A DNA stretch of 64,000 nucleotides. It comes from Tropheryma whipplei str. Twist (GTDB taxonomy: Bacteria; Actinomycetota; Actinomycetes; Actinomycetales; Microbacteriaceae). The stretch spans positions 744,001 through 808,000 of the forward strand of contig NC_004572.3 in the NCBI RefSeq assembly GCF_000007485.1. Direction: 5' to 3'. The notes under the pieces were generated by a model. It was not told the DNA's origin. It did not search any database and saw nothing but the letters and a program-made list of their open reading frames with translations. Below, in pieces: positions 15,816 to 21,597 of the stretch; the stretch's first letter is position 1, and each line of letters opens with the position of its first letter. The position numbers were made by a program, and so were the translations under genes.

Positions 15816-17135
15816 TCAGGCAGGATTTGTCTTTGTCTTTACGCGATCAGGAATTGACTCAACCTTGTCTATCACAAACACATAGGCTATAACACCAATA
15901 AGTGCAGCAATACCGAGATATGTGAAGACGGCACCATAGTTGTGCCCGGTGAACTGCAGTATAAACCCAACAACCAGCGGAGATGAGGCACCAAACAGAT
16001 TAACCCAGAACCCGTAAACACCGGTTGTAAGGCCGAGAAGCCGCGGAGTTGCAATCTCTGAAGCCAGAAGCCAGGCGGTATTTGCCATACCCGCGAAAAA
16101 GAAAACAACAATCACCAGAGAGAAAAGGACCCACCGCGGGGCACCACCCATAATAGGAATAAAGAGAAGGGGAATTGATCCGGTCAGGCCGACAGTTACA
16201 GTTACCTTACGGGCATTTCCCGGGGTAAAACCGGCCTTTACTAGGCGATCGGACAACCATCCAGCGAACAACATACCAAATATCCCGGCGATGTACGGTG
16301 CTGAAGAAAGGTATAACGCTCCACTCTTAAGATCAAAGCCAAGATTGCTCTTCAGGTAATTTGGAAACCAACTTATAAAGAAGAAAACAATTGTCGATGT
16401 AGAAAACGCACCTATATAAAGTCCGACAAGCCTGCGGTGTGTCAGGACGGCAACCCAATCTCTAAAGCTGGCGCGCGCCTTTACCTTATTGTCCTTTGCG
16501 TCAGGAGAATCACTCTGTATATACTCAAGCTCTTCCTTAGAAACAAAACGAGACTTGGATGGATCATCGGAGCGAATCGACAGAAACCAGATAATTGACA
16601 CAACAATACCGACAATACCGCCAAACACAAACACAGCGCGCCATGTAGCAAACACTCCGAGTATCCACGTAAGAACCGGAACGGCAAAGGCAAGGCCGGC
16701 AAAAGAGGCTGCCATATAGGCACTAACAGCTTTTGCGCGATCGCGCCGCGGAAACCATTTTCTTGCAAAAAATGAATTCACGGGGAATGTTGGTGCTTCA
16801 AAAGCACCGAGACCAAGGCGGAAAAACGCGAAGCTATAAAACCCTGTCGAAAATGGCGTGAAAAGCGTCATAAGCGAGAATCCCAACACGCCGTACCCGC
16901 CGACGGAACGCGCGCCAAACCTCTGGAGCAAATAGGCAATGAGAGGAATGACTATCACGATCCCCCAAACGAATTGAGACAGAAGAAAGCCCATCTGAAT
17001 ATCGTTCATATTAAATTCGGCTTTGATTTCATCAACCGCAACAGACACCGTTGCTCTATCAAGATAGTTTGTAAACGTTACCAATGACAGAACTATAAGA
17101 ACCCAGTATCGATAACACGTAGCCCGGCGTGCCAT
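15816..17135 (-). CDS. MFS transporter, anion:cation symporter (hexuronate/sugar acid) type
   Basis: 439 residues with twelve predicted membrane helices. TNYLDRATVSVAVDEIKAEF in the first helix and loop, GARSVGGYGVLG and FEAPTFPVNSFFARKWFPRRDRAKA are hallmarks of the ACS branch of the MFS (ExuT, GudP, GarP and phthalate carriers), which import sugar acids with protons. It lies downstream of five enzyme genes for sugar-phosphate metabolism, after a 307-base gap with its own repeat pair, so it may have a separate promoter. Likely the importer of the substrate of that pathway; the exact compound is not known. Confidence 0.85.
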   Translation of the reverse strand: MARRATCYRYWVLIVLSLVTFTNYLDRATVSVAVDEIKAEFNMNDIQMGFLLSQFVWGIVIVIPLIAYLLQRFGARSVGGYGVLGFSLMTLFTPFSTGFYSFAFFRLGLGAFEAPTFPVNSFFARKWFPRRDRAKAVSAYMAASFAGLAFAVPVLTWILGVFATWRAVFVFGGIVGIVVSIIWFLSIRSDDPSKSRFVSKEELEYIQSDSPDAKDNKVKARASFRDWVAVLTHRRLVGLYIGAFSTSTIVFFFISWFPNYLKSNLGFDLKSGALYLSSAPYIAGIFGMLFAGWLSDRLVKAGFTPGNARKVTVTVGLTGSIPLLFIPIMGGAPRWVLFSLVIVVFFFAGMANTAWLLASEIATPRLLGLTTGVYGFWVNLFGASSPLVVGFILQFTGHNYGAVFTYLGIAALIGVIAYVFVIDKVESIPDRVKTKTNPA

Positions 17136-17442: not shown

Positions 17443-18387
17443 CTAACGAAGGATATCCGTGCTCGTATACTCACCAAAGGCACTGGTTGACACCAAATCA
17501 CCATAGTGACTGAGGGCATGTTGGGCAGCGAGCATCCCGGTTTTTATACCCATGCGCAAATCACCCGATAGATGACCATGAAGACTACCGCCGACGAAAG
17601 CATCACCCGCACCGGGGCGGTCAATAACCCGCACCGGGGTTACAGGAAAACTTTCCTCTCCAGTGGCACTAGACAGGTAAACACCCTGTGTGCCAGCAGT
17701 GGACACAACCGTAGGTACACCATAACGGGCGCGCAGGGTACGCGCAACATCATCCGGCTCACCTGTTATACCAAACACCCTATCTGCATCACCACGACTG
17801 CAGAAGAGAATCTTCACCTTATCCAGGAGCGGAACGATGACACCTCTTGCCTCCTTGCCACTCCAGAGACGGGCCCTGTGATTCACATCGAGGACAATAT
17901 CGACACCCCGTTCTGACGCGCAGGCAACACCATACTCAATCACCCGTCTTGTTTTTTCTGTTAAAGCCATGGTTATGCCAGTTATAAAAAGAATGCGCGT
18001 ATCAAGTAAGGATCCCCAATCAAATATCTCGGGTTCTATCTCCCTAAACGGCGTGTGTAGCCTGTCATACACAACCTCGGCGGGCATTGGGTCCGCGCCT
18101 GGCTGTAAGAAATAAAGAGCCACGCGTCCCGTGTCCGTCCGTACGATATGAGACACATCCGTACCAACGGCTCTGTACTCTCTGACTATGCGATCACCAA
18201 GCTCACCTTTCGGTATTACAGATGCCCACGCACAAGAATGACCCAGCTGAGACAGAAGCCCTGTTACATTTGCCTCCGAACCGGCTGCAGTCAAGTAAAG
18301 CTGCTTTGCCGTAAGAAGATTCTCTCCACGTGGAACGGTGAGACGTATCTGACCCTCGCCCAAAGAAACAACATCGTATCTAGGCAC
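17443..18387 (-). CDS. PfkB-family sugar kinase (KdgK-like)
   Basis: 314 residues of the ribokinase fold. The N-terminal GSEANVTGLLSQLGH motif binds the sugar, and DRPGAGDAFVGG holds the catalytic Asp and anion hole. The overall pattern (YFLQPGADPMPAEVVYDR) is closest to 2-keto-3-deoxygluconate kinases, which phosphorylate C5/C6 of open-chain sugar acids. It overlaps the aldolase/epimerase gene by 8 bases, so it belongs to the operon. In the related ula pathway a PTS phosphorylates the substrate, and in yia-sgb an FGGY kinase; a PfkB kinase in this place is unusual. Confidence 0.85.
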   Translation of the reverse strand: MPRYDVVSLGEGQIRLTVPRGENLLTAKQLYLTAAGSEANVTGLLSQLGHSCAWASVIPKGELGDRIVREYRAVGTDVSHIVRTDTGRVALYFLQPGADPMPAEVVYDRLHTPFREIEPEIFDWGSLLDTRILFITGITMALTEKTRRVIEYGVACASERGVDIVLDVNHRARLWSGKEARGVIVPLLDKVKILFCSRGDADRVFGITGEPDDVARTLRARYGVPTVVSTAGTQGVYLSSATGEESFPVTPVRVIDRPGAGDAFVGGSLHGHLSGDLRMGIKTGMLAAQHALSHYGDLVSTSAFGEYTSTDILR

Positions 18388-19051
18388 TTTTTACCCCATC
18401 ACTCGCGGACATAGTCCCGTATCTATTTTTATATCTCTCATAATTTCGCCTGATTTCGACCTCAGGCAAAGGCTCAATATCGCCTATCTGCATCGCAGCA
18501 AAGATTGTTCTTGCGACATCCTCGACCATAACCGCAGCTTTGAGCGCATCGTGTATGGTCGCGCCAACGGTAAAAACTCCATGCTGTTTCATGAGTATAG
18601 CCGGAGAGTGACCAATCTTTCTGACAATCTCTTCGCCAATCTCTTCGCCGCCAATGACCGCATAATCCCCACAAGGAATTGGACCACCAAATTCATCAGC
18701 GACTGCAGTTATACAGCATGGAATCTCTTTTCCAACCGCAGCAAATGCAGTAGCATACCTAGAATGAGTGTGCACAATACTGACAACATCATCCCGCTTG
18801 CGGTACACGCCCAAATGGGACGCGGTATCGGACGAAGGCGGCATAGAACCTTCAACAATTTCACCGTCGAGGGAAACAACAACCATATCCTCCGGAGTCA
18901 TATTCTCATACAGGACCCCAGAAGGTTTTATAACAACAAGCCCAGTATCAGGATCTCTCGCAGACAAGTTACCGGAGGTCCAAGTAACCAAGCCCTCTCT
19001 GGGAAGGCGCAGGTTACCCTCGCAAACGCGAGCCCTCAAATCCTCTAACAT
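18380..19051 (-). CDS. L-ribulose-5-phosphate 4-epimerase (UlaF/AraD-like)
   Basis: A class II aldolase/epimerase of 223 residues. It shows TSGNLSAR, IKPSGV, the SSDTASHLGVYR loop, zinc ligands His94 and His96 (VHTHSRYA) and His157 (KQHGVF), and Asp119 in the VADEF segment, the place of the AraD proton donor. The family includes L-fuculose aldolases, but the neighbouring UlaD- and UlaE-like genes favour the 4-epimerase, which makes D-xylulose 5-phosphate. It overlaps ulaE-like by 7 bases and the kinase by 8. Confidence 0.85.
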   Translation of the reverse strand: MLEDLRARVCEGNLRLPREGLVTWTSGNLSARDPDTGLVVIKPSGVLYENMTPEDMVVVSLDGEIVEGSMPPSSDTASHLGVYRKRDDVVSIVHTHSRYATAFAAVGKEIPCCITAVADEFGGPIPCGDYAVIGGEEIGEEIVRKIGHSPAILMKQHGVFTVGATIHDALKAAVMVEDVARTIFAAMQIGDIEPLPEVEIRRNYERYKNRYGTMSASDGVKSA

Positions 19052-19899
19052 GCCTTAGAGACAACAGCGATACCAGACTCACCGAGCCGTGCAGTTATGA
19101 ACTCCCGAGCGCGCGAGGCAATGCGCTCAGAGTCAGGACTGTCATCATTCCACATCTCTATCATCATTCGTCCGGACCAGTTTTGACGATGCAGCTCATC
19201 AAAGGCCTCTTTCCACGGAACATGCCCACAACCCATCGGGACACGACGAGGTTCACCGGGACGAGTATCCTTAGCATGTAAAGCAAACATAAATCCTCTA
19301 CCAGCTGCAAGTTCCTGCCGAGTACTCAATTGTCGCTCGGTCAAATTACCTATATCAGGATACAGCTTAAGCCAAGGAGATCCCACCTGTTCAACAGCCT
19401 CCCTGCCTGAAATAATCGAGGTTATCCCATTTGTATCCACATTCTCAACACCAAGAACGACCCCGTTCAAAGACGCATAGGCAGCAGAATAGTGTAAAAA
19501 ATCTATAAACAGCTTTCGCGAATCGGGATGCGGCATCCCATAGTAATCATAGTAACCAGCCAACTGCAGAATCGGGATACCAAGACTAGAGCACAAATCA
19601 ACACCTTGACGGAGAAACAGGCGGGCCCTATCGCGCACGGCAGCGTCTTGGCTGGCCGGGGCAATCTTCCTGTGAACAGAAAGGCATATACCGCCGAGGG
19701 CAATACCTTCACGGTTAGCAGCGGCCCTAAGTTCGCATCTTCTGGTATCAGGCCAAGTGAGGCGCTCTATTCTTTCATCACTTTCGTCGACAGACAGATC
19801 AACAAACGCAAATCCTGCAGCAGCAGCGGCTGCAAAAAACTCACTCCAGGTCTCACGCCGTCTAATCGCCTTCTCGTATATACCAATCTCTATTGACAC
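19045..19899 (-). CDS. L-ribulose-5-phosphate 3-epimerase (UlaE/SgbU-like)
   Basis: 284 residues of the AP-endonuclease-2/xylose-isomerase TIM-barrel family. IGIYEKAI, FAFVDLSVDESDERIERLTW, GGICLSVHRK, LQLAGYYDYY and GVENVDTNG match UlaE closely. The metal ligands would be Glu (GVENVD), Asp (LYPDIGN), His (FALHAKDT) and Glu (MIEMWN). It converts L-xylulose 5-phosphate to L-ribulose 5-phosphate in ascorbate breakdown. In the middle of the operon, 25 bases behind the UlaD-like gene. Confidence 0.88.
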   Translation of the reverse strand: MSIEIGIYEKAIRRRETWSEFFAAAAAAGFAFVDLSVDESDERIERLTWPDTRRCELRAAANREGIALGGICLSVHRKIAPASQDAAVRDRARLFLRQGVDLCSSLGIPILQLAGYYDYYGMPHPDSRKLFIDFLHYSAAYASLNGVVLGVENVDTNGITSIISGREAVEQVGSPWLKLYPDIGNLTERQLSTRQELAAGRGFMFALHAKDTRPGEPRRVPMGCGHVPWKEAFDELHRQNWSGRMMIEMWNDDSPDSERIASRAREFITARLGESGIAVVSKAC

Positions 19900-19924: not shown

Positions 19925-20605
19925 TCAGCGCCACAATTCGCCTATCTCTTTTTGAAAACTGCTTGCAGCAGAAGACGGACAGTCTGCGCCAATGATGGCA
20001 CGCCCCGCAATAAATATCGAAACCGGAAGGCCTGAAAACTGAGCAAGGGTATCAACACGTATTCCCCCCGTGACTGTGACCATAAAACCAAGATCAGCCA
20101 GATACTTTATTTGCTCAAAGCTATCTTCCGTCCAGGCAGAGTCACCCGATGTTCCTTCCGCATCTCTTGAGCGCTTGACTATAACGTGGGAAACACCAAG
20201 ATCATGCCAAACTTTCGCGCGCTCATCTGAATAATACTGCCCTATCTCAACCTGAACCTGCCCACCAAATCTTTGCGCCACCGTACATACCTGTTTGACA
20301 GTCGTATCACTGGCACCAGAAACAACAGAAACCAAGCCTGCGCCCGATTCGAATGCCAAACTCGCAATTATCTTCCCAGCCTCAACAATTCTTACATCAG
20401 CCAAAACGGGCTTTCGCGGGTAAAGTGCACTTATTGCGCGCACGGCAGACATCCCTTCTGATAAACACAGAATGGTGCCAACCTCTATCACATCGACATG
20501 CTCAATAGATTTTTGCAGAGGCCCCAGGGCGCTTGAAAGGTCAAATGTATCGAGTGCAACCTGAAGAAGCGGCCGCGAGGGATGTTCTATAACAGCGCGA
20601 GTCAT
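19925..20605 (-). CDS. UlaD-like 3-keto-L-gulonate-6-phosphate decarboxylase homologue with altered active site
   Basis: 226 residues of the OMP-decarboxylase suprafamily. It aligns without gaps around the active site to E. coli UlaD (recalled sequence) with an offset of 8: Asp19, Glu41, Asp70, Glu120, Arg147 and the TVTGG phosphate site are kept. But Lys64 of UlaD is Arg72 here, Asp67 is Glu75 (LADVRIVEAG) and His136 is Lys144 (VKRSRDAE). In UlaD and hexulose-phosphate synthase these residues stabilise the enediolate and handle protons, so the substrate or reaction may differ. The start overlaps the lactonase stop by 1 base. Confidence 0.85.
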   Translation of the reverse strand: MTRAVIEHPSRPLLQVALDTFDLSSALGPLQKSIEHVDVIEVGTILCLSEGMSAVRAISALYPRKPVLADVRIVEAGKIIASLAFESGAGLVSVVSGASDTTVKQVCTVAQRFGGQVQVEIGQYYSDERAKVWHDLGVSHVIVKRSRDAEGTSGDSAWTEDSFEQIKYLADLGFMVTVTGGIRVDTLAQFSGLPVSIFIAGRAIIGADCPSSAASSFQKEIGELWR

Positions 20606-21597
20606 TACCGCCTGACCTGAAAGAAAGTTTGTGCATTGTACATAAGCAGATCATCAACATAATCAGGATCAAAACCTTCATCCAGCAGTCGAGGGGCGAA
20701 TACTGAAGGATCGTAATCAATGCCACTCACCGCACCGTAAGCCTTTTGATAACTCCGCTTTCCAGAATCGGTACCGAGCAAGAGTCGCTTGCCAAAACCC
20801 TGCTTGCCAAGTTCACGCACAAGCGTTACCCGTGCACTATCAGGGAGATATTTGATCCTATACGTCCCATCAAGCTCGAGATAAACGCCAAGTTTTAGTA
20901 TCTGTGCTAGATAGTACACATCAGCATTTCGCTGTATATGGCCTATAGCAACCTGATCTGGATCAACACCCAATTCAATAAACCGCTTTGCCTGTTCAAG
21001 ACCGGCTGTGCCAAAAGTTGTATGTGTGTTGATCGGTGCACCGGTAACCTTCGCAGCTATCGCCACAGCTTCCTGGGTCTTTTTCTCCCATTCAGTAATC
21101 TGGCCATAAGCAGAAGCAAACTTTATAACCCCAGCCTTATAAGGGGTTCTTTCTACAATTGGTCCAGAATAGTCATGGGCATCCACTCCCTCTTCAATAT
21201 CAGCTATAAGAAGATCAGCTATCTGGTTCACAGAATAGCGACTCACCCAGTGGCATTTTGTTTCTAGATAAACGTGTTCGCGGTGGAAGCCTGTTGCTAC
21301 AACTATATGAAGTCCCGGAATCCGATTGTTTACCTCGACAAGTTTTAGGACATCACGCCCACAATCGGCGGGACACATATCAATAATTGTTGCCGTCTGA
21401 GACCAACGCTTACTAGCCTGAACGAAATAACTCGCCTCTTCAACTGCCTTGTCGACACTGTCCAGCAAATGATCCTTGTCTAAATACACCTCACCGGCGC
21501 CGGTACGAATCAAATGATCGTGGCAATTAACACACCCAAGTAAATCGGGCGAAACGTCACCCTTTATCGTCCTTACAAATCCCAAAACAACCTCCAT
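20605..21597 (-). CDS. Phosphotriesterase-family hydrolase, probable sugar-phosphate lactonase
   Basis: 330 residues, amidohydrolase fold, COG1735 group. Binuclear metal ligands are His26 and His28 (NCHDHL), Lys159 (GVIKFAS, the carboxylated lysine), His192 (NTHTTF), His220 (IGHIQRN) and Asp277 (LLGTDSGK). Members of this group in Mycoplasma and Listeria were shown to hydrolyse phosphorylated sugar lactones, not organophosphates. As the first gene of an operon with UlaD-, UlaE- and UlaF-like genes it would replace UlaG, the L-ascorbate-6-phosphate lactonase. The exact substrate is an inference. Confidence 0.85.
   Translation of the reverse strand: MEVVLGFVRTIKGDVSPDLLGCVNCHDHLIRTGAGEVYLDKDHLLDSVDKAVEEASYFVQASKRWSQTATIIDMCPADCGRDVLKLVEVNNRIPGLHIVVATGFHREHVYLETKCHWVSRYSVNQIADLLIADIEEGVDAHDYSGPIVERTPYKAGVIKFASAYGQITEWEKKTQEAVAIAAKVTGAPINTHTTFGTAGLEQAKRFIELGVDPDQVAIGHIQRNADVYYLAQILKLGVYLELDGTYRIKYLPDSARVTLVRELGKQGFGKRLLLGTDSGKRSYQKAYGAVSGIDYDPSVFAPRLLDEGFDPDYVDDLLMYNAQTFFQVRR

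Follow-up and report, generated by a model that had tools for sequence, protein, structure and literature searches.

The UlaD homologue encoded in the window (the whole analysed stretch of 64,000 nucleotides of Tropheryma whipplei DNA) is probably a 3-keto-L-gulonate-6-phosphate decarboxylase (KGPDC) belonging to a distinct clade with a DxRxxE motif, and working in a PTS-independent operon for L-ascorbate or a very close enediol-lactone. With somewhat less confidence, we propose a PTS-independent pathway composed of a PfkB-type L-ascorbate 6-kinase, a PTE-family ascorbate-6-phosphate lactonase and an Arg/Glu-type KGPDC in which His136 is freely exchangeable with Lys. Through this operon, vitamin C can probably be used by T. 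whipplei, as by numerous other bacteria, with an ATP-dependent kinase in the place of the customary PTS transporter.

In KGPDC, as defined for E. coli UlaD, Glu33 and Asp62 are Mg2+ ligands, the enediolate is stabilised by Lys64, and proton return is managed by Glu112, His136 and Arg139. An earlier reading of the DNA from its letters only (the sequence-only reading) had claimed that the 226-residue homologue carries Arg, Glu and Lys in place of Lys64, Asp67 and His136, and that its gene is undamaged. The reading frame, on the minus strand, is indeed undamaged, and phmmer matched E. coli UlaD (1kv8) over residues 10-225 of the homologue (E=5e-57), placing R72, E75 and K144 opposite K64, D67 and H136, respectively. 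Because the Ala of the K64A mutant structure (1so4) falls exactly on R72 and that of the H136A structure (1so3) on K144, the residue mapping is secure. The equivalents of D11, E33, D62, E112 and R139 are retained in the alignment, as had also been claimed, together with those of T169 and R192. The ungapped alignment to UlaD assumed earlier holds through R139 and fails beyond it, where the homologue has a 2-residue insertion near residue 152.

The set E112/R139/T169/R192, which separates KGPDC from hexulose-phosphate synthase (HPS), is present in the homologue. An AlphaFold2 model shows a confident barrel (pLDDT 92) with K144 at the end of strand 6, and its top PDB matches are all KGPDC (TM 0.92, 46% identity). 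The homologue scores under the cut-offs of both NF009831 (UlaD; 192 versus 294 bits) and NF009832 (220 versus 250), and under that of TIGR03128 (HPS; 135 versus 200). HPS shares the same OMPDC suprafamily barrel, but HPS proteins of related genomes keep K64/D67/H136 and have D112, L/V139, A169 and G/S192, and the window protein differs at all of these positions; an HPS identity was rejected by residue set and scores. By sequence and fold, the homologue belongs to the KGPDC branch of the OMPDC suprafamily. However, the DxKxxD motif (K64, D67) and H136 are absent, and since DxRxxE and Lys stand there instead, it is classed as a KGPDC variant and not as a typical member. Since one side of the DxKxxD site is located across the dimer interface in OMPDC suprafamily members, a coupled, charge-preserving Arg/Glu swap is plausible, and loss of the motif Lys could weaken decarboxylation.

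When the family alignment was run against 84,980 species genomes, 80 named loci came up, distributed over Actinomycetota, Chloroflexota, Pleomorphomonas/Hyphomicrobiales and Trueperaceae and over MAGs with the labels Acidobacteriaceae and Spirochaetes. Arg64 and Glu67 were found in 80/80 of them, a scan in which one of the two patterns included the motif, and the invariance of Arg/Glu rests instead on motif-free searches. One of these, within the same order, added 14 genomes whose relatives share 48% identity or more and are all Arg/Glu; another yielded 7 relatives from Chloroflexota (52% identity or more), and all six readable translations show Arg/Glu. At position 136, Lys is found in 44 loci and His in the other 36. 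In a tree of 114 rows (86 Arg/Glu, 23 K/D/H KGPDC and 5 HPS) with columns 64, 67 and 136 masked and loci L138 and L141 left out for misframed translations, all 86 Arg/Glu rows formed a single branch (SH-aLRT 99) apart from the K/D/H KGPDCs and HPS; as every row of the clade carries it, the Arg/Glu exchange is not a chance event. Residue 136 changes between Lys and His about five times on the tree, with at least two changes required by supported branches, and the Arg/Glu/Lys triplet as a clade was rejected by an AU test (p = 0.000266). These results indicate that Arg/Glu is the mark of the clade and Lys136 a recurrent swap, so that the idea of the whole triplet defining its own clade has to give way to Arg/Glu alone. 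No link was seen between residue 136 and lactonase type among these loci (PTE with Lys 38, PTE with His 21, UlaG with His 11, UlaG with Lys 4); Lys136 does not track pathway change. One Arg/Glu/Lys member, from Actinomyces timonensis (L108), has Cys at the otherwise invariant Arg139. An order-level search revealed no Arg/Glu-type UlaD in about two dozen genomes of the same family as T. whipplei, only HPS-like matches of about 34%; the operon may have been acquired horizontally by T. whipplei or widely lost in its family.

The homologue lies in a run of genes on one strand in the order PTE, UlaD, UlaE, UlaF, PfkB (Table 1), in which the PTE and UlaD genes overlap by 1 base, UlaE and UlaF by 7 and UlaF and PfkB by 8, with 25 bases between UlaD and UlaE. 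A PTE-type phospholactonase, a decarboxylase, a 3-epimerase and a 4-epimerase are thereby encoded together, and all operon genes are undamaged. The MFS gene, which starts 307 bases beyond the PfkB gene, is a putative member judged by strand and order. Its product best matches the D-galactonate transporter-like subfamily (TIGR00893) while most related operons have a Sugar_tr-type MFS, which suggests a separate recruitment of the transporter.

Table 1. Predicted genes of the UlaD operon in the window
Feature	Position	Strand	Basis
PTE-family phospho-sugar lactonase, predicted L-ascorbate-6-phosphate lactonase	20605..21597	minus	PF02126; nearest solved 3msr, 3pnz
UlaD/KGPDC homologue, Arg64/Glu67 clade (R72, E75, K144)	19925..20605	minus	sequence and structure matches
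UlaE-like L-ribulose/L-xylulose-5-P 3-epimerase	19045..19899	minus	NF009688, 365 bits (cut-off 317 exceeded)
UlaF-like L-ribulose-5-P 4-epimerase	18380..19051	minus	NF005123, 340 bits (cut-off 251 exceeded)
PfkB sugar kinase, candidate ATP-dependent L-ascorbate 6-kinase	17443..18387	minus	PF00294; nearest solved 2afb
MFS transporter (anion/sugar-acid type), candidate importer	15816..17135	minus	PF07690; TIGR00893, 249 bits (under cut-off)

Neighbouring genes of the 80 loci, a check that the sequence-only reading had proposed, were determined by codon scoring and tblastn, and a conserved operon emerged with a PTE-family phospholactonase, UlaD, UlaE, UlaF, PfkB and an MFS or ABC transporter. PfkB was detected by tblastn in 77/80 loci, and UlaE and UlaF in most; two of the three loci lacking PfkB end at contig edges, and the third (L069) has a complete downstream stretch. 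A divergent SorC/DeoR-type regulator is usual in related operons, and no SorC-type regulator was found in the T. whipplei genome. The window operon shares with the E. coli ula operon the decarboxylase, both epimerases and a lactonase step in equivalent position, but where E. coli uses the PTS UlaABC and UlaG, the window has neither, with a predicted ATP kinase, an MFS transporter and a PTE-family lactonase instead. At the protein level, UlaD/SgbH of E. coli (1KV8) and the window protein have in common the fold, the metal ligands E33/D62, the specificity residues and the UlaE and UlaF neighbours; they differ in that the window protein carries DxRxxE and Lys for DxKxxD and His136, and its operon PfkB and PTE for PTS and UlaG. 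The E. coli yia/sgb operon (LyxK, SgbH, SgbU, SgbE) resembles the window operon in placing a kinase-based, not PTS-based, phosphorylation upstream of KGPDC, but has an FGGY kinase, a TRAP transporter, no lactonase and an SgbH of K/D/H type.

Across the 80 loci, a PTE gene is present in 59 and UlaG in 16, never both, and most of the five loci with neither are explained by contig ends. Chloroflexota and Pleomorphomonas lack the PTE gene and have UlaG where it would stand, Chloroflexota having ABC sugar-transporter genes in addition. The swapped-in UlaG is genuine by score (618 bits versus a cut-off of 306) and about 66% identical to enterobacterial UlaG, which is an L-ascorbate-6-phosphate lactonase. 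The type changes only twice on the UlaD tree, where the UlaG-bearing Pleomorphomonas loci are nested among PTE-bearing Actinomycetota. The direct exchange of PTE and UlaG within one operon type argues strongly, at the level of genome context, for L-ascorbate-6-phosphate as the lactone that the PTE protein opens. Its closest solved relative is the mycoplasma phospho-furanose lactonase MS53_0025 (3MSR/3OVG), with phosphate-binding positions conserved in type, although the window protein reaches 238 bits against a cut-off of 630 for that family (NF045706). The phosphate ligands of MS53_0025 presumably correspond to R223, K249, Y250, K280 and Y283 of the window protein, a two-residue numbering offset being assumed. 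For the mycoplasma PTE lactonases that have been characterised, the reported assay substrates are pentonolactone phosphates. Independently of the present analysis, a metabolic model of swine mycoplasmas gave the missing UlaG step to a phosphotriesterase-like gene (PMC4866288).

The single-contig T. whipplei genome (927,303 bp) contains transketolase, and searches of it revealed no UlaG, no EIIC-GAT permease of the ascorbate PTS and no KDPG aldolase, which would give a KDG kinase a role. EIIC-GAT is likewise entirely missing from 13 of 20 genomes that carry the operon. PfkB was found at 0/10 K/D-type comparator loci (ula and yia-like), six of which had an ascorbate PTS permease and five an FGGY kinase, a contrast of small statistical weight as the association of Arg/Glu with PfkB represents a single evolutionary event. 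The window PfkB is KDG-kinase-like and far under equivalog cut-offs; since both PfkB and PTE fall under the NCBIfam equivalog cut-offs, homology does not fix their substrates. In UlaG-bearing operons, the order with the kinase first is implied because UlaG acts on ascorbate-6-phosphate. Most simply, ascorbate would enter without a phosphate and be converted to ascorbate-6-phosphate by PfkB at the expense of ATP. Neither an 'ascorbate kinase', nor this operon, nor UlaD and PfkB as one pathway was found in the open-access literature, and nothing was found there on ascorbate use by T. whipplei; the operon is apparently undescribed.

The proposed substrate, kinase activity, mechanism and direction of flux are as follows. 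Ascorbate would be imported by the MFS transporter, or by an ABC transporter in other phyla, and phosphorylated at O6 by the PfkB kinase with ATP, and the PTE-family lactonase (UlaG elsewhere) would convert L-ascorbate-6-phosphate to 3-keto-L-gulonate-6-phosphate. The UlaD homologue would then form L-xylulose-5-phosphate via a Mg-bound enediolate, with Arg72 serving for Lys64, Glu75 for Asp67, and Lys or His acting as an interchangeable basic residue at position 136. UlaE and UlaF would finally turn L-xylulose-5-phosphate into D-xylulose-5-phosphate for entry into the pentose phosphate pathway. We expect the homologue to be a 3-keto-L-gulonate-6-phosphate decarboxylase with possibly altered kinetics or protonation stereochemistry.

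The same architecture could serve another aldono- or keto-lactone (e.g. erythorbate or pentonolactone), so that a different 3-keto sugar-acid phosphate is decarboxylated. This would agree with the KDG-kinase-like PfkB, with the clade-specific alteration of the UlaD active site and with the mycoplasma PTE relatives, which we take to be pentonolactone-5-phosphate hydrolases. However, a genuine, L-ascorbate-6-phosphate-specific UlaG serves as the lactonase in 15-16 of this clade's operons, and UlaE and UlaF are the pentulose-5-phosphate epimerases of the ascorbate route, making another substrate unlikely. A retuned chemistry, as suggested by the sequence-only reading, with a change of reaction to an aldolase, an epimerase or another decarboxylation, could be read from the three exchanges at catalytic positions. 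In one version, Lys144 at the end of strand 6 would form a Schiff base and, together with a KDG kinase, provide a KDPG-aldolase-like activity, in line with the KDG-kinase-like PfkB and the T. whipplei genome lacking KDPG aldolase. By contrast, His136 is found in 36/80 relatives with the same operon, indicating that a Schiff-base lysine is inessential, and this role of Lys144 was rejected on that ground. Repeated Lys/His switching, the full KGPDC-specificity set and the absence of HPS signatures further argue against a new reaction, which we consider improbable. The view that the exchange marks a changed reaction has thus found no support: because Lys and His interchange in the same operon, which retains UlaE, UlaF and a lactonase equivalent to UlaG, the enzyme most likely still decarboxylates 3-keto-L-gulonate-6-phosphate.

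Neutral divergence or early decay of UlaD, carrying no functional meaning, might be suspected in a reduced genome of 0.93 Mb that has lost the SorC-type regulator, the more so given the long terminal branch of the window UlaD. Nevertheless, the exchanges are common to free-living relatives with large genomes across phyla, and the operon genes are undamaged with overlaps at three junctions among five genes, which renders such decay very improbable. The claim of the sequence-only reading that the exchange is maintained and not decaying stands, Arg/Glu being fixed in a clade that takes in Actinomycetota, Chloroflexota, some Alphaproteobacteria and further groups.

K64 and H136 of KGPDC have been mutated to define its mechanism, and structures of K64A and H136A exist; a natural clade living without K64 and H136 tests how far these residues are needed. 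If an operon for L-ascorbate is the correct reading, it would represent a full ATP-driven vitamin C route in bacteria without an ascorbate PTS, including Actinomycetota of skin, mouth, gut and bee gut, and probably a source of carbon for a host-associated bacterium with a 0.93-Mb genome. It also offers testable functions for three misnamed families (PTE-like, PfkB/KDG-kinase-like and hexulose-phosphate-synthase-like).

Some loci stood out within the wider collection. Closely similar operons are carried by MAG contigs labelled Spirochaetes (L061), Acidobacteriaceae (L112) and Chloroflexi (L060), and some of these labels may reflect binning errors or horizontal transfer. A class-level search of Chloroflexota found a more distant KGPDC-like family (L163-L168; 37-39% identity, ORFs of 361-393 aa) that keeps K64/D67/H136, has Trp at 139 and shows almost no operon markers nearby; it is no part of the Arg/Glu clade. 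Several Chloroflexota operons encode a solute-binding protein (SBP) as an ORF of 920-966 aa (966 aa in L074 and L092), relatives being about 455 aa long, and in L169:2806-5568 the single ORF contains two matched SBP stretches, apparently a tandem fusion.
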